A stretch of 53,086 nt of DNA from an uncultured Clostridia bacterium (GTDB taxonomy: Bacteria; Bacillota; Clostridia; Oscillospirales; Oscillospiraceae). The notes below the pieces were generated by a model, which was given only the letters and a program-made list of their open reading frames with translations, searched no databases and had not been told where the DNA came from. Positions 5,663 through 29,200 of this stretch are shown here, piece after piece. Location of the stretch: NCBI GenBank assembly GCA_946184165.1, contig CAMHEN010000002.1, forward strand, positions 1-53,086, given 5' to 3'. Each line of letters begins with the position of its first letter. The stretch's first letter is position 1. The position numbers and the translations under genes are program-made.

Positions 5663-5862
5663 TATATGGGTATCGGGTTAACTCAGCAATATAGACAAGA
5701 TCAACACGAACAGTGTAAAAACTGCTTCGTAGGGGCCGATGCCCTCATCGGCCCGAAACCTTATGGCATGTACAATGTACCAACGTTTCGGGTCGATCTG
5801 GGGATCGACCCCTACGAGATGTACGTTTCGACAGTTTGCTGGTTAAAGTCGATACCCATATA
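5663..5862. mobile_element. MITE-like element with 13-bp terminal inverted repeats
   Basis: The ends TATATGGGTATCG (5663-5675) and CGATACCCATATA (5850-5862) are perfect inverted repeats. A second, imperfect layer follows inside (GTTAA...GCAA against TTGC...TTAA). The centre holds two facing copies of a palindromic unit, 5727-5758 and 5786-5817, with cores GGGGCCGATG and GATCGACCCC. It starts right after larC. A 65-codon open frame spans it but has no ribosome site or recognisable product, so I treat the element as non-coding. Between 5880 and 5921 there is a further hairpin (ATCCCGGA against TCCGGGAT). Confidence 0.7.
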
Positions 5863-5965
5863 AAACGATTGCGGCAAAAATCCCGGACAACCACGTGAAA
5901 AAACACGGCCTTATCCGGGATCATATTTTCGCTTTCGCGCGCATGGAGGCGGAAAGCCCGTTCTC

Positions 5966-6119
5966 CCGTAGGGGCCGACGCCCCCGGCGGCCCGCGCGGA
6001 ACAGTTTGAAAGCAAACAGAAATCCCCGGCGAAAACGTGCATCTGTCACGGATTCGCCGGGGATACGTGCGTTTATCAGGGCCATGCTACCGGGCCGCCG
6101 GGGGCGTCGGCCCCTACGG
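5966..6119. repeat. 154-bp element with 29-bp perfect inverted repeats
   Basis: The arms 5966-5994 and 6091-6119 are perfectly complementary over 29 bases. They begin CCGTAGGGGCCGACGCCC and contain the same GTAGGGGCCGA core as the other dispersed units. A nested 12-bp inverted repeat (ATCCCCGGCGAA at 6022-6033 against 6053-6064) sits between them. No gene is present in 5660-6159; the whole gap is made of such repeats. Confidence 0.75.
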
Positions 6120-6159
6120 CAGGCGGCAGCATTCCCGCTTCGCCGGGGGAGTTCACCGA

Positions 6160-6777: not shown

Positions 6778-8838
6778 TTATGCCGTGGGGACGAAGGCGT
6801 AGCCCTTCTGCCGGGCGAAGGACTGGGCGGTGCTGCCGCGGACGCCGAGGATCGTGAGATCCGAGAGGGTGCCGAAGGCGCTGCGGCTGATGTAGATGCA
6901 GCTCTCGGGGATATAGACATAGCGCAGGTTCCCGCAGCCCGCGAAGGCGTTCGCACCGAGCTCTTCGGCGCTCTCCGGCAGGAGTGCGAAGCGGAAGGCG
7001 CAGTTTGCGAAGGCCTCCCCCTCCACGACCGTGAGGGCCGCGGGCAGCGCGAAGTCGGGCTCCGCCCAGACGGCGTAGAGGGTCGCGCTCTCCTCCTTCG
7101 TGTAGCTGCCGCCGGGGAGGTAGTCCGCCCTGTCCGCGTCCGGGCTCTCCGCCCAGCCGACGAAGTAATACCCGCTGCGGACGGGGATGGCGGAGGACAG
7201 CGTCAGAGTCCCGCCGGGGTTCATCGTCTGCGCCTGGGGCGCGCCGCTGCCGCCGTTCGGGTGGTAGGCGACGGTCTCGGAATAGCGGCTCCACTGGGCG
7301 TAGAGGGTGAGATCCGTATCGGACGTGACAGTCGCCTCATCCCGATAGGAGACCCCGCTGCCGTCCCGCGCGGTGTTCCACCCGGCAAAGGCCATGCCCG
7401 AGGGGGCGGAGAAGGTATTGGGGCTGAGCGTCACCGCGGCGTTCGGGGCGGCATACTGCACAGCCATGGTCCCGGTCCCGGCCCCGCTCACGCTGACGGG
7501 CTCAAAGCGGATGACGATCTCATCCGTGCAATGGATCGCCGCGCGTGTCAGATAGCCATTGTTGGTTCCAATGGAAATTTCGTTCCACTGCGCTCGGGTA
7601 CCGTTGTAATATACATCCGTCAAATTGCTGCAGCCGTAGAAGGCATCGTGGCCGATGCTGGTGACGCTGTCCGGAATGGTGACACTCGTGAGACTGCTGC
7701 AGCCGGAGAAGGTGTAGTAGTCAATGCTGGTAACGCTGTCCGGGATGGTGACACTCGTGAGACTGCTGCAGCCGTAGAAGGTAGAACCATTGATGGTGGT
7801 GACGCCGTAAGGGATAGTCACGCCGGTGAGACTGCTGCAGCCGGAGAAGGCAGAGTTGCCGATGTTGGTGACGCCCTCCGGGATGTTCACGCTGGTGAGG
7901 CCGCTGCAGCCGTAGAAGGCCCTATCGCCGATGCTGGTGACGCCCTCCGGGATGTTCACGCTCGTGAGGCTGGTGCAGCCTTGGAAGGCCGCGTAGCCGA
8001 TACTGGTGACGCTGTCCGGGATGGTCACGCCGGTGAGACTGCTGCAGCCGTCGAAGGCATAGCTGCCGATGCTGGTGACGCTGTCCGGGATGGTCACACT
8101 CGTAAGGCTGGTGCAGCCGGAGAAGGCGAAATTGCCGATGGTGGTGGCACCCTCCGGGATGGTCACGCCGGTGAGGCTTCTGCAGCCGTAGAAGGTGGAG
8201 TAGCCAATGCTGGTGACGCCCTCCGGGATGTTCACGCCGGTGAGGCTGCTGCAGCCGTAGAAGGTCCAGCCGCCAATGGTGGTGACGCCCTCCGGAATGG
8301 TCACGCTCGTGAGACTGCTGCAGCCGTAGAAGGCATATTCGCCAATGCTGGCGACACCCTCCGGAATGATCACACTGGAGAGGCTGCTACAGCCAAAAAA
8401 GGTGAAGTCATCAATTTTAGTGATATCTTCTGGGATGATTATGTCGGTTATCTTATTACAAGCATTAAAAGCGTTTCTTCCTATGGAAGTCACACCCTGG
8501 GGAATATTGACTTCCGTCAAATTGATACATGCGAAAAACGCATAATCCCCAATGCTGGTGACGCCGCTGCCGATATCCACAGCGGTGATGCTGGCACGGC
8601 TTCCGTACCACGGCGCAGTGCCTTGACTATAATTCTCCATAGCACCCCTGCCGCGGATCTCCAGCACCCCGTTCTCGGTCAGGGTCCAGGTCAGATCATC
8701 GCCGCAGGTGCCGGAGTAGTGCGCCCAACTCAAGCCATCACGTGCCGCATCCTCCTCCGCGCTTGCGGCGGGGGTGAGGGCGAGACCCAGGCAGAGGCAC
8801 AGGAGCAGAACGAGACACAGGCGCAGTGCGGTTTTCAT
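6778..8838 (-). CDS. BspA-like leucine-rich-repeat surface protein
   Basis: A 686-residue exported protein. Residues 1-27 are a signal peptide ending TPAASA. A short linker domain follows to residue 83, then 14 tandem 23-residue BspA-type (TpLRR) repeats of the form LTSVTIPDSVTSIGxxAFxGCSS at residues 84-405. Next come one degenerate unit, two InlB B-type (Listeria-Bacteroides) repeats with FAGWNTA and YFVGWAE cores around 450-580, and a last set of LRR-like units. No LPXTG, SLH or transmembrane anchor is seen, so the protein is probably released or bound by unknown means. Such proteins often take part in host or microbe adhesion (family knowledge). The start at ATG 8838 gives the signal peptide. 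It follows the ROK kinase gene by 26 bases and may be co-transcribed. Confidence 0.9.
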   Translation of the reverse strand: MKTALRLCLVLLLCLCLGLALTPAASAEEDAARDGLSWAHYSGTCGDDLTWTLTENGVLEIRGRGAMENYSQGTAPWYGSRASITAVDIGSGVTSIGDYAFFACINLTEVNIPQGVTSIGRNAFNACNKITDIIIPEDITKIDDFTFFGCSSLSSVIIPEGVASIGEYAFYGCSSLTSVTIPEGVTTIGGWTFYGCSSLTGVNIPEGVTSIGYSTFYGCRSLTGVTIPEGATTIGNFAFSGCTSLTSVTIPDSVTSIGSYAFDGCSSLTGVTIPDSVTSIGYAAFQGCTSLTSVNIPEGVTSIGDRAFYGCSGLTSVNIPEGVTNIGNSAFSGCSSLTGVTIPYGVTTINGSTFYGCSSLTSVTIPDSVTSIDYYTFSGCSSLTSVTIPDSVTSIGHDAFYGCSNLTDVYYNGTRAQWNEISIGTNNGYLTRAAIHCTDEIVIRFEPVSVSGAGTGTMAVQYAAPNAAVTLSPNTFSAPSGMAFAGWNTARDGSGVSYRDEATVTSDTDLTLYAQWSRYSETVAYHPNGGSGAPQAQTMNPGGTLTLSSAIPVRSGYYFVGWAESPDADRADYLPGGSYTKEESATLYAVWAEPDFALPAALTVVEGEAFANCAFRFALLPESAEELGANAFAGCGNLRYVYIPESCIYISRSAFGTLSDLTILGVRGSTAQSFARQKGYAFVPTA
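7624..8589 (-). repeat. Fourteen 69-bp tandem coding repeats
   Basis: This stretch encodes the 14 BspA repeats. Units are 69 bp and nearly identical in places (the segment for LTSVTIPDSVTSI recurs). Units 1-4 at the 5' end of the gene have diverged most and are less GC-rich; units 5-14 are homogenised, which suggests recent unit duplication or gene conversion. Confidence 0.85.
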
Positions 8839-9864: not shown

Positions 9865-9957
9865 TTCGTAGGGGCCGATGCCTTCATCGGCCCGAAGACT
9901 GATGATCCGTACAAGGAAACGGGGCTCGGGTCGATCTGGGGATCGACCCCTACGGAA
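9865..9957. repeat. Paired palindromic repeat unit before the ROK gene
   Basis: A left unit (9865-9896, core GTAGGGGCCGATG...CATCGGCCC) and a right unit (9925-9957, core GGGTCGATC...GATCGACCCCTAC) face each other. The arrangement and several stretches match the middle of the element at 5727-5817. It fills the 160-bp gap between ppk1 and the ROK gene and is the only candidate for ending ppk1 transcription. Confidence 0.7.
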
Positions 9958-15294: not shown

Positions 15295-16131
15295 ATGAAA
15301 CGGATCATCACGTGGGGGCTTGTGCTCTGCCTTCTGTGCATGCTCCTCACCGCCTGCGCAAAGCGTCCGGAGCTTGAGCCCTGGGAGATGCCGACCGTGG
15401 ACACAAAGCCCACGCCGGCGCCCACCGCGGCCCCGGCCTTCGGGGGCGGCAGTCCCGAGCGCTATGTCTGGAACGAGGCGCTCTTTGCCAACATGGCAAA
15501 TCCCGGCGCCGCGGCAGGCAGCATCCAGGAGACGCACACCCACAAGGAGTGCCTGGCCCTGTTTCCCTATACCTTTCTGCCTGCCTCCGTCTTTGGGGAG
15601 AGCTATGCTGCCTACGAAAAGCTCACCCTCAAAAAGACCCAGCACGACGTGATGCTGGACGGGGCGGGACAGCTCGCCGAGCACGCCTATATCGAGTTCC
15701 GGTACCTGCCCAAGAGCGGCAGGGAGGACGAGGGACTCTACGTCATGGCAGAGCTCTGCTCTCTGGACGCGGCCCAGGAGATCTACAACGGCAATTACCC
15801 CCATCTGATCATGCCGGAGGGGGAGCGGCTGCACCTTTCCACATACTACCTCAAGGATCTCGTCCTCGCGAAGGTCGGGGAGCAGCGCGTGGCCCAGATG
15901 CTGAAGCTCACGCCCGCCTCGTATTTTTCCGACGCCCGCCGCGCCATGGCGGAGGATGAGAGCTTTGTGCCGCAGCGCCAGGTCTTCCTGACGCTGACCT
16001 GCGGCCTCAATATGAGCGATGAGGAGTTTATCGCCGCTGTCTGTTATCTCCTGCGCTACAGCGACGGGAGCGAGATCGTCACCCCGGAGCCGAGCAGGCT
16101 CCCCGTTTTCGGCGAAAAAGGCGCGGCATAG
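15295..16131 (+). CDS. Lipoprotein of unknown function
   Basis: A 278-residue protein with a lipoprotein signal: MKRIITWG, a hydrophobic core and the lipobox LLTAC with Cys20 or so as the lipidation site. A proline- and threonine-rich linker (TKPTPAPTAAPA) follows. The mature domain is mixed alpha/beta with no motif I recognise. A GGGAGGA ribosome site precedes the ATG. It has its own promoter and is followed by a 15-bp perfect hairpin (16135-16149 against 16154-16168) that lacks a T-run. The domain might be a substrate-recruiting or envelope-stress factor, but nothing in the sequence decides this. Confidence 0.85.
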   Translation: MKRIITWGLVLCLLCMLLTACAKRPELEPWEMPTVDTKPTPAPTAAPAFGGGSPERYVWNEALFANMANPGAAAGSIQETHTHKECLALFPYTFLPASVFGESYAAYEKLTLKKTQHDVMLDGAGQLAEHAYIEFRYLPKSGREDEGLYVMAELCSLDAAQEIYNGNYPHLIMPEGERLHLSTYYLKDLVLAKVGEQRVAQMLKLTPASYFSDARRAMAEDESFVPQRQVFLTLTCGLNMSDEEFIAAVCYLLRYSDGSEIVTPEPSRLPVFGEKGAA

Positions 16132-16175
16132 CCTCAAATGAGAGAATGCTTTGGCATTCTCTCATTTGAAAAAAA

Positions 16176-16328
16176 TGCACCCTGCTGCGCGCATTCGCTT
16201 GCGACGCGAAGATAGTCCTTTAGGGCGGGAGACGCTCGCACACTTGCAGGGCGAGAAGTGTTTTTTTCCGAGGCACATGTCCCCGGAAAAAACGATTTGA
16301 ATTGTTTTTCGCCTTGCGAGGCGAAAAA
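16176..16328 (+). repeat. Three-stem intergenic element, copy A
   Basis: An 83-base core (16176-16258) matches the copy at 19470-19552 at 76 positions without gaps, including TAGTCCTTTAGGGCGGG. The core is closed by CCCTGC against GCAGGG. A second stem follows (TTTTTTCCG against CGGAAAAAA), then the shared GATTTGAAT linker and a third stem (TTTTTCGCC against GGCGAAAAA). It ends 54 bases before hflX. It may be a structured RNA, an attenuator or a mobile repeat. The strand is given as that of the flanking genes. Confidence 0.65.
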
Positions 16329-16382
16329 TCAGAGGGAGCTCCCTCTGAACTCTCCGGCAGATTTTCTAACAACGGAGTCAAT

Positions 16383-17681
16383 ATGGAAGCAAACGAAACG
16401 AAAAGAGAACGCGCGGTACTGGCCGGGCTTGCCGCCGGCAGCATGGATGAGTATGAGCGCTCCAGCGACGTCACGATGGAGGAGCTCGCCGCCCTGGTGG
16501 AGACCGCCGGGGGCGAGACTGCTGCGGTGCTGATCCAGTCCCGGCCCACGCCCGACCCCCACAGCTTTCTCGGGGATGGGAAGGTGAAGGAGCTCAAGGA
16601 GCTCATTGAGGCAAACGAGTGCGATCTCGCCGTGTTCGACAACGAGCTCTCCCCCTCCCAGATGCGGGTATTGTCCGAGGAGCTCGGCGTCAAGGTGCTG
16701 GACCGCTCCGGCCTCATCCTGGATATCTTCGCCCAGCGGGCGAGGACGCGGGAGGGCCAGCTGCAGGTGGAGCTCGCGCAGTATAAATACCTGCTGCCGC
16801 GCCTCACCGGCATGTGGACACACCTCGTGCGGCAGACGGCCTCGGGCGGCTCGTCCCCCATCGGCACCCGCGGCCCCGGCGAGACTCAGCTCGAGACCGA
16901 CCGCCGCCACATCCGCCGCAAGATCCAGAAGCTGGAGGAGGAGCTCGCGGACGTGCGCAAGGTCCGCGGCACCCAGCGGAGACGGCGCGAGAAGAACGCC
17001 ATGCCCGTGGTGGCTCTCGTGGGGTACACGAACGCCGGCAAGTCCACGCTCTTAAACTGTCTCACGGGGTCCGACATCCCGGCAAACGACAGACTCTTCG
17101 ATACGCTGGACACCACGACCCGCCGTCTGCGCGTGGACGAGACGCAGGAGATCCTGCTGTCCGACACGGTGGGCTTCATACGCAAGCTCCCGACCCACCT
17201 GATCGAGGCCTTTAAGGCCACCCTCGAGGAGCTCCAGTATGCGGACGCCCTCCTGCATGTGATCGACATCTCCAATCCCGAGTGGCCCGAGCAGGCCCGC
17301 GTGGTGGACGAGCTCATCCGGCAGCTCGGGGCGGAGAGCACGCCCTGCATCCGCGTCTACAACAAGTGCGACGCCTACTTCGGCATTTTGCCCCACGGCG
17401 AGGACTGCGTCTGCATCTCCGCCAAAAGCGGGGAGGGCGCGGCGGAGCTTCTGGAGCTTCTGTCCGCCCGGCTCGACCGGGGCAGGCGCCGCGTGACGCT
17501 GAAGCTGCCCTATGCCGCGGCGGGCCTTCTCGACAGCCTCAACCGGGAGGCGGCGGTTTTGTACACCGAGTATACCGAGGACGGCGTGGAGGTGGAAGCC
17601 ATCGTCCCGCCGGAGCTTTTCGGACGGGTCAAGGCCTATATCCCCGGCTTTGTCGAACCGAAAGAGGAGTGGGAGACATGA
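16383..17681 (+). CDS. hflX: Ribosome-splitting GTPase HflX
   Basis: A 432-residue TRAFAC GTPase that binds stalled 70S/100S ribosomes and separates the subunits during stress. The N-terminal HflX domain covers residues 1-200, including GDGKVKEL and the GTRGPGETQLETDRR signature (161-175). The G domain has G1 GYTNAGKST (214-222), G3 DTVGF and G4 NKCD. The C-terminal part follows after about residue 375. The frame is open further upstream, but ATG 16383 with CGGAG upstream gives the family start. The last four bases overlap the YigZ gene (ATGA). The three-stem repeat lies in its leader. Confidence 0.95.
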   Translation: MEANETKRERAVLAGLAAGSMDEYERSSDVTMEELAALVETAGGETAAVLIQSRPTPDPHSFLGDGKVKELKELIEANECDLAVFDNELSPSQMRVLSEELGVKVLDRSGLILDIFAQRARTREGQLQVELAQYKYLLPRLTGMWTHLVRQTASGGSSPIGTRGPGETQLETDRRHIRRKIQKLEEELADVRKVRGTQRRRREKNAMPVVALVGYTNAGKSTLLNCLTGSDIPANDRLFDTLDTTTRRLRVDETQEILLSDTVGFIRKLPTHLIEAFKATLEELQYADALLHVIDISNPEWPEQARVVDELIRQLGAESTPCIRVYNKCDAYFGILPHGEDCVCISAKSGEGAAELLELLSARLDRGRRRVTLKLPYAAAGLLDSLNREAAVLYTEYTEDGVEVEAIVPPELFGRVKAYIPGFVEPKEEWET

Positions 17682-18304
17682 GCGAGTACTATATCCCCAC
17701 TGGCCCGGGCGAGAGCGAGTTCACCGAAAAGCGCTCCCGCTTTCTCGGCCACGTCCGCATGGCGGAGACCGAGGACGAGGCCCGCGCCTTTATCGCCGAT
17801 ATGAAAAAGAAATACTACGACGCGCGGCACAACTGCTGGTGCTACAGCATCCGGGACGGGGCCGAGCGCTACAGCGACGACGGCGAGCCCCAGGGCAGCG
17901 CCGGCATCCCCATGCTGGAGGTGCTGCGCCGTCAGGGGGTGACGAACGCGGTCTGCGTCGTGACGCGCTATTTCGGCGGCGTCCTGCTCGGTACCGGCGG
18001 TCTTCTGCGGGCCTACACCAAAAGTACCGCCGACGCCCTGCAGGCCGCGGGTATCTCCGCCGTGCGCCGCTGGGTCGAGACGGAGCTCCCCTGCACCTAT
18101 GCCCAGCTCGAACGCATGAAGCTCGAGGCGGCGGAGGCCGGCGGCGTTGTGGAGGACGTGGAATACGGCGCGGGCGTCACGCTGCGGGTCCTCGTGCCGG
18201 AGGAGCGGAGCGACGCCTTTGCCGCGCGCATCTACGATCTCAGCGCCGGAAGCGTCAAGGTCCTCGTCACCGGCGAGAGCTTTCGCGCGGTGCCGATAAA
18301 ATGA
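17678..18304 (+). CDS. YigZ/IMPACT-family protein
   Basis: A 208-residue protein with the UPF0029 (IMPACT) N-terminal domain and a ferredoxin-like DUF1949 C-terminal domain. Conserved blocks are SDDGEPQGSAGIPML and VVTRYFGGVLLGTGGL. Eukaryotic IMPACT modulates Gcn2; bacterial YigZ is thought to bind nucleic acid or ribosomes, and YvyE/YigZ is often annotated as a translation regulator, though the function is not settled. Four-base overlap with hflX implies coupled translation, consistent with a ribosome-related role. A terminator follows at 18369. Confidence 0.92.
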   Translation: MSEYYIPTGPGESEFTEKRSRFLGHVRMAETEDEARAFIADMKKKYYDARHNCWCYSIRDGAERYSDDGEPQGSAGIPMLEVLRRQGVTNAVCVVTRYFGGVLLGTGGLLRAYTKSTADALQAAGISAVRRWVETELPCTYAQLERMKLEAAEAGGVVEDVEYGAGVTLRVLVPEERSDAFAARIYDLSAGSVKVLVTGESFRAVPIK

Positions 18305-18368
18305 CAAGCCTTCACCGCGAGAAAAATTTTTTCAAAAAAATAAAGGGAAATACAAATTTGCGTCGTAT

Positions 18369-18406
18369 AAGAGTAAGGGAAGGGAAAATCCCTTGCTCTT
18401 TTTATT
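18369..18406 (+). terminator. Terminator after hflX-YigZ
   Basis: AAGAG plus AAGGGA pair with TCCCTT plus CTCTT, with one opposed unpaired base on each side, followed by TTTTTATT. It lies only 18 bases before the next start codon, so it could also act as an attenuator for the HD-domain gene. Confidence 0.75.
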
Positions 18407-18423
18407 ATGCTGTATGAAAGGCG

Positions 18424-19437
18424 GTGGCGTCCGTGTCCTGTCCAAGAGAGGAGAGAGAACGGCTCGAGCATCTGATTGTCGGGCCATACGGCGTGCTGGC
18501 GGAGAATACCCGCGGCCGACTCACGCCGGAGGAGGAGTGCAGCATCCGCACCTGCTTTCAGCGGGATGTGGACCGCATCACCCATTCCAAGTCCTTCCGC
18601 CGCCTCAAGCACAAGACCCAGGTGTTTTTAAGGCCCGAGGGGGACCACTACCGCACCCGTCTGACCCACACGCTGGAGGTCACCCGCCTCGCGCGGACCG
18701 TCGCCCGCGCTCTGGGGCTCAATGAGGATCTCGCGGAGGCCATCGGCCTCGGCCACGACCTGGGCCACACGCCCTTCGGCCACGCGGGAGAGCGGGCGCT
18801 CGACGTAATCTTCGAGGGAGGCTTCAAGCACTATGTACAGAGCCTGCGCGTGGTGGATGTGCTGGAGCGGGACGGGCAGGGCCTGAACCTCTGCTATGAG
18901 ACCCGCATGGGCATCCTGAACCACACCCACGGCGCGCCGGACGATACGCGCGAGGCCACCTGCGTGCGCCTGTGCGACCGGATCGCCTACATAAACCACG
19001 ACCTGGACGACTCCATCCGCGCCGGCATCATCCGCGCAGACCAGGTGCCGGAGCGCATCCGCCGCGACTGCGGGGAGCGCAACAGCGAACGCATCAACTC
19101 CCTTATCGCGGACCTCATCGAAAACAGCCGGGAGGGCGTGCTGCGCATGTCCCCCCGCATGGAGGAGACCTTTCAGTTTTTCCACAGCTATATGTTCTCC
19201 GACGTGTATACAAACCCCATGGCCAAGGGGGAGGAGAACAAGGTACAGGGCATCCTGGAAAAGCTCTATAATTATTATGTAAACCATATCGAGAAAATGC
19301 CCCCCGAGCTGCAGGCGATCGCCGAGCGGGAGGGCGCGGGCCGTGCGGCGGTGGACTATATCTCCGGCATGACCGACGGCTACGCGATGGAGAAATTCGG
19401 CGAGATCTACATCCCCTTCGCGTGGACCGTGAAATGA
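18424..19437 (+). CDS. dGTPase-like HD-domain phosphohydrolase
   Basis: A 337-residue dNTP triphosphohydrolase of the Dgt family, expected to release triphosphate from deoxynucleotides and so affect the dNTP pool. The N-terminal FRRLKHKTQVF and HYRTRLTHTLEV are the Dgt signature. The HD metal site is read as His in RTRLTHTLEV, GHDLGH near residue 110 and Asp in CDRIAYINHDLDD. The length is that of the short Gram-positive dGTPase branch (often placed just before dnaG in Clostridia, as here). The start is a GTG. Both 18424 and 18433 are possible; the second has better spacing from AAAGGCGG. Oligomeric state and allostery cannot be seen. Confidence 0.92.
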   Translation: MASVSCPREERERLEHLIVGPYGVLAENTRGRLTPEEECSIRTCFQRDVDRITHSKSFRRLKHKTQVFLRPEGDHYRTRLTHTLEVTRLARTVARALGLNEDLAEAIGLGHDLGHTPFGHAGERALDVIFEGGFKHYVQSLRVVDVLERDGQGLNLCYETRMGILNHTHGAPDDTREATCVRLCDRIAYINHDLDDSIRAGIIRADQVPERIRRDCGERNSERINSLIADLIENSREGVLRMSPRMEETFQFFHSYMFSDVYTNPMAKGEENKVQGILEKLYNYYVNHIEKMPPELQAIAEREGAGRAAVDYISGMTDGYAMEKFGEIYIPFAWTVK

Positions 19438-19469
19438 ATTCGATGAAATGCAAGTCATTTCATCGAGTT

Positions 19470-19618
19470 TGCAGCCTGCCGCGCGCACTCGCTTGCGACG
19501 CGAAGCTAGTCCTTTAGGGCGGGGGACGCTCGCACACTTGCAGGCTGAGAAGAGTTTTTCGCGAGGTACGCGCCCCCGCGAAAAACGGATTTGAATGTTT
19601 TTTCGCATACGCGAAAAA
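19470..19618 (+). repeat. Three-stem intergenic element, copy B
   Basis: Second copy of the element at 16176. Core 19470-19552, closed by GCCTGC against GCAGGC. The second stem is GTTTTTCGCG against CGCGAAAAAC, and the third stem is TTTTTCGC against GCGAAAAA. The stems differ from copy A by paired changes. An 11-bp hairpin (19440-19450 against 19456-19466) precedes it, as a hairpin of other sequence precedes copy A. It ends 29 bases before dnaG and would lie in the dnaG-rpoD leader. Confidence 0.65.
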
Positions 19619-19647
19619 CTCTGTGAGGCTTTGAAGAAGGTGACACC

Positions 19648-26212: not shown

Positions 26213-29200
26213 CTACTTTTTCTTCCGCTTGACGAGTACAACGATGATCACGATCAGGATGATCAGCACCAAAAGCGCGATGGCGAGGATGGTCCAGGTC
26301 ATGTCCTTTTCCACAAGCTGGACCGGGATATCGGTGCTGAGACCGTAGTCGTCGGTGGCCGTCACGGTGAAGTCCGCGCTGCCGAGACCGTCTACTTCGG
26401 CCTCAACCGTGGATTCCGTGAGCGTGACCGCGCCGCCGAGATCGTCAGAGACCGTGTATTCGAGCTCGCTGCCCTTCGGATCCTCGAAGAGTTCATCAAG
26501 CTCCGCCGTCCAGGTGCCATCCTGCAGAAGACCGGTCTTGATGGTGTCGATCACGGTATCTACCTTCGCGGTGGGGGCGGGGAAGACAAGCTCGAAGGGG
26601 AGCGCGGTGCTGAGACCCCGGCTGTCGGTGGCGCTGACGGTGAAGGCGGCGGATTCCTCCCCCTGGAGGCGGAGCTTCAGAACGCCGTCCTCAATGCGCG
26701 CCATACCGCCGAGATCGTCGGACAGGGCGTACGTGAGACCGTCCCCCGCGGGATCGTCAAACACGTCGGAGAGCGTGAGCTCCCAGCCCTCCTCGGTAAA
26801 GCGGCCGTACTGCAGCGGGTCTGTGAGAAGCGCGGTTTTGACACCGGGCATCGTGACGGCAAAGTCGAAGGGGATCTTCGCGCTCATGCCGTGCTCGTCG
26901 GTGGCGGTGACGGTGAAGGCGGCCTTCCCGTCCGCCGCGCCGAGATCCACATGCAGCACGCTCTCCTCCAGTGTGAGCGCGGCGGCGGAGCCGGGCAGAT
27001 CCTCTGTCACGCTGTAGCTGAGCGCTGTGCCCTTGGAGTCTTCAAAGAGTTCGGAGAGATCGGCGGTCCAGATGTTGTTTTCCACCGTGCCGAAGGCGGT
27101 GATGTCGGAGACGGTCTGCATCTTCGCCTCGGGGAGGGTGTAGGCGATGTCAAAGGGGAGCGTGGAGCTGAGACCCCGGCTGTCGGTGGCGGTCACGGTA
27201 AAGGCGGCAGCCCCGCCGAGCTTTTCAAGATCGGCGCTCAACACACTGTCGTTCACGCTGACCGCGCCGCCGAAATCGTCGGAGAGGGAATAGGCGAGAC
27301 CCTCGCCGGTGCTGTCCTCAAAGAGGGGCTCGAGATCGACGGACCAGACATTGTCCGTGATGCTGCCGCTGGCGAGAATGTCGGAGACGTTCTCCGTCTT
27401 CGCCGCGGGGAGGGTGAAGCTGAGATCAAAGGGGAGGGTGGAGCTGAGACCCCGGCTGTCCACGGCGGTGACGTCAAAGGAAGCCTTTCCGCCGAGCGCC
27501 GCGAGATCAACGCCCAGCACGCTGTCTTCTATGGAGACATTGCCGCCGAGATCGTCGGAGAGCGTGTACTGAAGGCCGTTGCCGGCGGGATCGTCAAAGA
27601 GCGTGTTGAGGTCGACAGACCACACGTTGCCCATGACCTCACCGAGATCCGCGATCTCGGAGATACGCGCCTGCTTCGCCTCCGGCATGGCGACGGAGAG
27701 GGCAAAGGGGATCTCGGCGCTCAGACCGTGGGCGTCCGCGGCGGTGACGGTGAAGTCCGCGCTTCCGCCGAGTTTCGCAAGATCGGCGCTGAGTATATCG
27801 CCGTCAATGCCGACCGCGCCGCCGAAATCGTCGGACAGGCCGTAGCGGAGACCGAGACCCGCGGGATCGTCAAAGAGGGTGCCGAGGTCAACGGACCAGA
27901 CGTTATCCCGGATGCTGCCGTGATTCATCACGTCCGAGACGGAAGAGAGCCTGGCGCCCGGAAGCTCTGCCCTGAGATCAAAGGGGACCTCAACGGAGAG
28001 ACCGTAGCTGTCGGTCGCGGTAACGGTGAAGCTGGCATTGCCGCCGAGCTTTGCAAGGTCCGCGCTGAGAACGCCGTTCTCGATCGCGACCGCGCCGCCG
28101 AAGCTGTCGGACAGCGCATAGGAGAGGCCGGTGCCCTTGGGGTCCTCAAACAGCTCCTGCAGATCCAGGGACCAGACGTTGTTCTGAATGCTGCCGCAGG
28201 CGAAGAGATCGGACATGGCCTCAAGCTTTGCCGTGGGGGGCGGGACCAGGACAGTCATCTTGAGCGTGTTGGAGCGGACCTCGATCCCCGTCAGGCGGAC
28301 AGAGGCGGTGGCGGCATACTCGCCGCCGTTTTCAAAGGTGAAGTCACAGCCGAAGACCCCGTCGCGCATGTCCATGGGGATCATCTCCGTCTCCCCGGAG
28401 GAGAGATTTTTGACCGCGAGATCCACTGTGATGGTGCCGAGATTCTCTTCGCTCAGGGGCGCTTCAAAATCCGTGACGACGGTCTCAAAGTGCACGGGCT
28501 TCAAAACCTCGCAGTCCTCGCCGGCACTCTCACGGGTGAGCATGGCGCTCACGGAGGAGTTGTAGATGAGGCACACGTCGATGGAGTCGCCCGGCTCGCC
28601 CCGGAGATTGACGGTCCAGTCTCCGGCCGCGGGCGCCGGGATCTTCACAAGCAGAAAGCGCGAGGTCTGCAGCTCATGTTCCAGCGTGTCGTAATCGCTG
28701 CCGTCGGGCTGTGTGATGCGGATATCCCCGCTCTCCACAAGGGCGCCGTTCTGGGGCTCCCGGCGCTCTACCACGATGTTGACCTCCTCCACGCCGAAGG
28801 CGGGAACGAGAAAGCCGGTCTCTGCCGCGCCCTCTTCGGAGAAGAGGACCTTATGGGCGCCGGTGTACTCGGTCTTGTTGATGATGGAATAGAAGCGGCT
28901 GAAGGTGGCGGTCAGATCCTCGGGCTTGGAGACGATCTCAAATTCGCCGTCGGTCCCGTCGGTATAGCGGCGCAGCTCCTCCTCCCCCGCGGCGGCCCTG
29001 CCGTCAACGTCGAGGAGGATGCCGTGGATGGTAATGCCGTCCTCCCGGGCAGCTTCCAGCGCTCTTTTGCCGGCGTCACGGGAGCTTTCCATCCGGATCC
29101 AGCGGTTTTCCGGCGGGAAGTCCGTCATCCCGTCCGTGAGCAGAAGGATCTCACAGGGCAGGCCGTTCTCCTCCTGCATGCCGTGCAGGATCTCGGTCGC

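Follow-up and report, generated by a model that had tools for sequence, protein, structure and literature searches.

Two intergenic elements before hflX and dnaG in an Oscillospiraceae genome are probably degraded copies of a non-autonomous IS1182-type mobile element carrying a conserved structured module

The window analysed here, a whole stretch of 53,086 nucleotides from an uncultured Clostridia bacterium of the family Oscillospiraceae (contig CAMHEN010000002.1), holds two copies of one intergenic element: A (16134-16352), before hflX, and B (19440-19631), before dnaG. In all likelihood each is the degraded remnant of an IS1182-type mobile element that is non-autonomous, resembles a miniature inverted-repeat transposable element (MITE) and carries a conserved structured module. 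The module is best read as a candidate structured RNA, predicted from sequence and apparently undescribed. Each copy runs from a left hairpin through a closing stem (P1), which encloses a smaller inner helix, to the hairpins P2 and P3. A preliminary description of this DNA gave the coordinates and sequences of both gaps as we find them, and its observation that the stems survive sequence change in both copies holds. It was also right that the hairpins preceding the two copies are unrelated in sequence; these are, however, the left end of the element itself and not a neighbour.

The family is dispersed, and not the plain duplication of just two copies that the preliminary description had set up as the opposing case. 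With A as BLAST query, the window's own genome (2.26 Mb, 67% complete) gives 24 matches including A and B, 22 of them on other contigs, while B finds matches in 21 of 60 genomes: its own, 19 more from the genus and a single one from another family. From 61 copies (near full length, uncut and with duplicates removed, kept out of 99 nhmmer rows) we built a covariance model. With E per genome capped at 0.001, it detects the element in 44 of 295 genomes of the order, the window's own included, which represent 27 of the 149 genera; this tally holds several weak genomes (E 1e-4 to 1e-3), one or two of which may be chance. At E up to 1e-8 there are 32 genomes and 20 of the 149 genera. Scoring was limited to 11 candidates per genome; 18 of the 44 genomes reach that limit, and the copy numbers are minimum values. 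This is the survey that the preliminary description had proposed, for many copies with covariation before varied genes in related genomes, and it found them. Distant-mode searches gave no match in plasmids and phages with B's element as query, and none in E. coli genomes with the copy at locus L054. No Rfam 15 family reaches its gathering score anywhere in the window, in line with the earlier remark that no named element matches; at permissive E-values, the loci of five copies and A's region yield sub-gathering matches only, many of them to microRNA families. Searches of open-licence PMC papers listed none whose title or abstract start describes the element.

The structural evidence comes from two alignments. 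A1, a sequence-made MAFFT alignment of the 61 copies within the genus, gave the RNAalifold consensus of 28 pairs counted here, which cover P1, the inner helix and P2 and leave P3 outside. In A1, 98.6% of cells are paired against 89.2% in shuffles, both sides change in 15 of the 28 pairs, and none of 500 shuffles reaches any of the five observed measures; sliding the structure along the alignment lowers pairing to 39-58%. A2 comprises 62 matches from 22 genomes of other genera (taken best-scoring first from the 43 other positive genomes) and was fitted to the covariance model, so that it leans towards the structure; both sides change in 24 of its 28 pairs, with 96.2% of cells paired against 77.5% in shuffles, and in P1 all eight pairs covary. 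Folding A or B as single plus-strand sequences is less telling: of 200 shuffles each, none does as well as A and 5 do as well as B. Much stronger evidence of structure comes from the family alignment. Together the alignments show P1, the inner helix and P2 as a predicted structure kept by compensatory change across genera, with G-U pairs on the minus strand.

The wobble pairs indicate which strand folds. Read on the minus strand, G-U outnumbers A-C by 259 to 7 in A1 and by 175 to 7 in A2, or by 31 to 7 and 16 to 7 once pairs whose commonest state is a wobble are set aside; the sequences are related, and these counts are not readable as probabilities. The plus strand would have A-C mismatches at these wobbles, and the fold is therefore assigned to the minus strand, antisense to hflX and dnaG. 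The second pair of A's closing stem is an example, reading G.U on the minus strand where the plus strand has A.C. The fold proposed in the preliminary description is thus real and better read on the minus strand, which that description did not see. Its suggestion of selection for structure, at the DNA or RNA level, is supported by the covariation, and would apply to a minus-strand RNA or to single-stranded DNA; the better-kept copies described below are transposon-like, which is more than a structured repeat. On the minus strand the seven-base loop of P2 has G and A, or A and G, as its first and last bases in most copies, a swap that would fit a non-canonical G-A pair. A minus-strand pseudoknot (ACACTT/AAGTGT) spotted by eye was dropped, as no covariation was apparent by eye.

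What marks the family as mobile is found at the ends of its better-kept copies. In the genus these are about 200-270 bp long and bounded by terminal inverted repeats CARRCTGTMGACAAA, with related repeats such as CAGCGTGTCGAAAAA in other genera. Their order is a left hairpin made of the terminal repeat and its own inverted copy (CTGTCGACAAAGCC GAAA GGCTTTGCCGACAG), then P1, P2 and P3, then the right repeat (GTTTGTCTACAGTCTG). Outside them lies a terminator-like hairpin that varies between loci and is alike on left and right. Across the loci collected, 65 of the 97 candidate pairs of repeats (which include chance pairs) are flanked by a direct repeat of 16-43 bp scoring at least 13, two of the 65 sharing one site (L263), whereas only 13 of 9312 mismatched flank pairs score 12 or more. 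Of these 65 direct repeats, 54 lie right against the terminal repeats, with no base between, and 61 have a folding energy of -8.5 kcal/mol or lower. For the window's element itself, the hairpin is duplicated in 21 of 64 copies of this genus at a score of at least 16 (7 of 4032 mismatched flank pairs) and in 22 of 60 copies of other genera at a lower threshold of 13 (7 of 3540); the 60 are the 62 matches less the two weakest. The length of the duplication tracks the hairpin (26, 28, 32 and 36 bp, for example) and is not constant; duplications of up to about 60 bp are listed for IS1182 in ISfinder. From their form and place the duplicated hairpins are probably terminators. The orientation of the element with respect to the hairpin shows no bias among the 21 copies, with 82 A ahead of the left hairpin copy and 89 T following the right one.

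Some single loci deserve mention. At L363 (G304:C32) the two hairpin copies on either side agree in their arms and have opposite loops (TTTTT left, AAAAA right), as if one had been flipped, and at L079/L119 (G034:C31) a second right repeat stands just left of the left hairpin copy, where two insertions seem to share one terminator. The left hairpins, surveyed in 64 copies, are mostly perfect stems whose sequences differ widely between loci, and some of those in the window's genome and in genome G031 run into T runs. At what seem by their flanks to be the same sites in different species (L008, L036 and L037; L026 and L066), the left hairpins are different yet perfect; either the left hairpin turns over quickly or the sites were hit again.

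The ends link the family to IS1182. An exact search of genome contigs for the right repeat gave, among the matches listed, at least many Firmicutes, mostly Bacillales and Clostridia. At four loci (L177, L194, L221 and L226) elements of 1.7-1.8 kb lie between such repeats with duplicated hairpins outside, imperfect at L221 and an exact 32-bp duplication at L177. L177 (Lysinibacillus fusiformis) and L221 (Bacillus sp. FJAT-27445) carry uninterrupted transposase frames of the IS1182 family, which score 478 and 476 bits against NF033551 (cut-off 270). In the window's genus, partial IS1182-type transposase genes begin beside the same repeat in G030, G018 and G034. Further small elements of 165-193 bp (L107, L112, L117, L127, L120 and L125) have the same ends and terminator-like duplications with different interiors, and the element ends are very abundant in G021. 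The covariance model finds the P1-P2 module in none of 14 such loci (the four ISs, three same-genus transposase loci and seven other small elements). Two other partners were considered and rejected. ISNCY/IS1202-type transposases make long target duplications; NF033594 matches weakly in 3 of 16 genomes, never over the cut-off, and no pair of the repeats is present at any of the four loci so matched. PF05598 is matched in 8 of 17 genomes, yet most such loci lack the repeat. One right repeat (L131) lies near a gene that we take to be IS481-like.

Relatives also offer sites without the element. The search covered 22 same-genus relatives (G001-G022; G023-G036 were outside it), and dnaG was obtained in 21 of them. 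In 18 of the 21 the same upstream gene end is kept and the gap is, by eye, free of P1-P2-P3; the remaining three have a different upstream gene end. The insertion of B is therefore specific to the window's lineage among the genomes seen. Before hflX, G003 and G016 share the upstream gene with a gap of 3-4 nt by eye, and G022 shares it with another version of the element, so that A's site is occupied in two of the four genomes sharing its upstream gene. Before dnaG, G022 (L269, G022:C113), one of the 18, has a small solo hairpin of the left type past the upstream stop, with the same GAAATGC/GCATTTC core and the rest of the element absent; this is either a deletion scar or a separate unit.

The marks expected of an IS1182-family MITE are seen as follows. 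Ends shared with an autonomous IS1182 element are found on the better-kept copies, with Bacillales ISs as the counterpart, and not on A or B; insertion at palindromic or stem-loop targets is likewise seen for the better-kept copies and not shown for A and B. Target-site duplication exceeds the controls in this and other genera and is absent at A and B, and element-free sites in relatives exist at both dnaG and hflX. The better-kept copies show these sequence hallmarks; A and B, which do not show them alone, we file as derivatives. As to mechanism, movement in trans is the most likely: an IS1182-type transposase would join the two ends of the element to an extruded terminator stem-loop at its 5' feet, and gap repair after joining would then duplicate the entire hairpin. 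The minus-strand structure may aid movement, serve as a small RNA or soften the damage done by insertion. A bolder proposal, which we regard as rather unlikely, is an order-wide mobile family in which the predicted minus-strand RNA is the partner of an IS1182-type DDE transposase, with targets chosen by hairpin shape and the whole target hairpin copied.

Several observations weigh against an IS1182-type mobile origin. A complete IS1182 element with both ends was not found in the window's genus: the partial transposase genes of G030, G018 and G034 are cut at contig ends and stay below the cut-off (158, 217 and 31 bits), and the six same-genus transposases that exceed it, from five genomes, have no clean repeat at their ends. 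The window's own genome, at its 67% completeness, has only a 20-bit fragment of an IS1182 transposase and no PF13751 match. Hairpin duplication is missing from 43 of the 64 copies in the genus and 38 of the 60 in other genera. A and B themselves have neither a right repeat nor a flanking duplication and are therefore probably immobile relics before hflX and dnaG. They are among 46 of 62 copies (the set used for stop codons) without a detectable right repeat, and 26 of those 46 begin no more than 12 nt from the stop codon of a frame that is open over at least 60 codons, against 0 of the 16 copies with a right repeat. The class is mixed, as some of the 46 keep a flanking hairpin duplication (L067, L019, L090 and L091, for example). 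Simple insertion does not explain this adjacency to stop codons; stem-loop replacement, of the kind reported for IS1272 (PMC5678879), and selection against longer gaps are possible causes.

The same adjacency would also fit a cis-acting regulatory RNA or untranslated structure, immobile, kept by its host genes and spread by ordinary duplication. The genes around A and B are co-directional and the fold is conserved across genera, as such an RNA would have it. We nevertheless consider this quite improbable, given that the copies adjoin different genes, that 18 of 21 same-genus relatives have the upstream gene end but no element body at dnaG, that many copies show themselves to be insertions by their terminal repeats and duplicated hairpins, and that the strand with the structure runs antisense to both hflX and dnaG. 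If a single intergenic region had simply been duplicated inside the window, this would account for the uncommon insert and the 76 of 83 core positions that A and B share; with many family copies elsewhere such a duplication is refuted, and we give it essentially no credence.

Other readings accept the hairpins and differ on why they are kept. The element is a row of hairpins, its better-kept copies sit at terminator-like hairpins, and T runs follow some left hairpins in the window's genome and G031, all of which would suit a role at the DNA level only, be it as cruciforms, protein-binding hairpins, or insulator or terminator hairpins limiting read-through. P2 and P3 have 5' arms rich in T and, judged by eye, no following T tract, and so are not standard terminators; the one-strand wobble bias favours a single strand, though single-stranded DNA remains compatible with it; we hold a purely DNA-level role to be doubtful but worth keeping in mind. 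Quasi-palindrome correction is a known process, and template switching that perfects imperfect palindromes could produce paired changes by mutation and not selection. The mostly perfect left hairpins, so variable between loci, may well be its work. As an account of the module it has two points against it: the arms of P1 lie about 28-60 nt apart and still covary at eight of eight pairs in other genera, and the minus-strand G-U bias is not expected from it. We consider it unlikely, and prefer degraded copies of a mobile IS1182-type element with a structured module.

The layout of A and B follows this plan. Their 83-base core differs at 7 positions by manual count (76 of 83 the same), and a repeat search on the window puts their likeness at 91% over 90 nt. 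The left hairpins are both perfect, unlike in sequence and placed 2 nt past the upstream stop codon: in A at 16134-16169 (16-bp stem, loop TTTG, no strand assigned), past the stop of 15295-16131, presumably a lipoprotein-like gene, and in B at 19440-19466 (11-bp stem, loop CAAGT, no strand assigned), past the stop of 18424-19437, which we take to be dGTPase-like. The P1, P2 and P3 stems that follow are assigned to the minus strand. A's P1 (16178-16253; arms 16178-16185 and 16246-16253) encloses the inner GUGCG/CGCGC helix and a 24-nt insert at 16201-16224; B's P1 (19472-19547; arms 19472-19479 and 19540-19547) has the same insert at 19495-19518. The closing stem arms are CACCCTGC/GCAGGGCG in A and CAGCCTGC/GCAGGCTG in B. 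P2 occupies 16260-16293 in A (arms 16260-16273 and 16281-16293, GTTTTTTTCCGAGG/CCCCGGAAAAAAC; minus-strand loop ACATGTG) and 19554-19586 in B (arms 19554-19566 and 19574-19586, GTTTTTCGCGAGG/CCCCGCGAAAAAC; minus-strand loop GCGCGTA). P3, in both copies outside the 28 counted pairs, spans 16305-16328 in A (TTTTTCGCC/GGCGAAAAA) and 19599-19618 in B (TTTTTCGC/GCGAAAAA). A ends in a variant right end at 16330-16352, an CAGAGGGAGCTCCCTCTG hairpin followed by AACTC with no strand assigned, which is also present in a subgroup of copies. B ends in a minus-strand box at 19617-19631 (AACTCTGTGAGGCTT; minus strand AAGCCTCGCAGAGTT) that visual inspection also shows in many copies, from this genus and from others.

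The insert in the core, GCGACGCGAAG[A/C]TAGTCCTTTAGG and about 24 bases long, has a similar length in just four copies of the 61 in the alignment: A, B, L006 and, as a variant, L032. With B as BLAST query, positions 22-60 match by themselves elsewhere in several genomes; the 24-nt insert in P1 may be a separate short repeat, and L048 is listed with the same observation. The window also contains another hairpin repeat (GTAGGGGCCGAYGCC...) at 5727-5817, 5963-6122 and 9868-9901, with 32-nt arms that are 97% complementary at 5963-6122, and tandem repeats, probably coding, at 7557-8615 and 26325-28188, with periods of 69 and about 276 bases.

Group IIC introns, too, insert at terminator stem-loops; they are retroelements without terminal repeats or target duplication, and the window has no Rfam family at gathering score. 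ISs of the IS1182 family resemble the element in their ends, with the same terminal inverted repeats on L177, L194, L221 and L226; the window's element differs in having no transposase gene and in carrying the P1-P2 structure, which the covariance model does not find in those four loci. Transposases related to IS1182 work both with and without duplicating the target and may recognise the structure of their target DNA (PMC12056078), and since this source reports it, target duplication is not new in itself for the family. For the IS1182-like transposon of Thermoanaerobacter kivui, the available text of the same source describes no hairpin-length duplications, terminator targets or structured RNA.

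Bacterial MITEs such as RUP, BOX, SPRITE and QMITE are short, non-autonomous and intergenic, form stem-loops and in some cases yield small RNAs (PMC10969869). The term IS1182 does not occur in the main text of that review, and measured against the MITEs in its available text, the window's family stands apart by its IS1182-type ends, its hairpin-length duplication and one fold that covaries over many genera. It adds a strongly covarying structured RNA candidate, without an Rfam 15 match at threshold, that is found in many genera of one order and tied to a mobile element. It also carries a warning: a terminator or an intergenic RNA candidate in these genomes may be the end of a transposon.

The nearest parallel in target choice is IS1272 of staphylococci, a member of the IS1182 family that inserts at stem-loops, several of them confirmed terminators, with no sequence preference (PMC4923244, PMC5678879). 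As far as the available text goes, the stem-loop is deleted or replaced when IS1272 inserts, with no target duplication left behind, and duplication of a whole stem-loop is drawn as a possible pathway only (PMC5678879, Fig 13 pathway b). The window's family shares the stem-loop targeting described there and differs in duplicating the whole stem-loop. A duplication whose length tracks the hairpin, and not a constant stagger, is what would be expected if the feet of an extruded stem-loop are where the transposase joins, and target choice in the IS1182 family thereby becomes testable with natural substrates.

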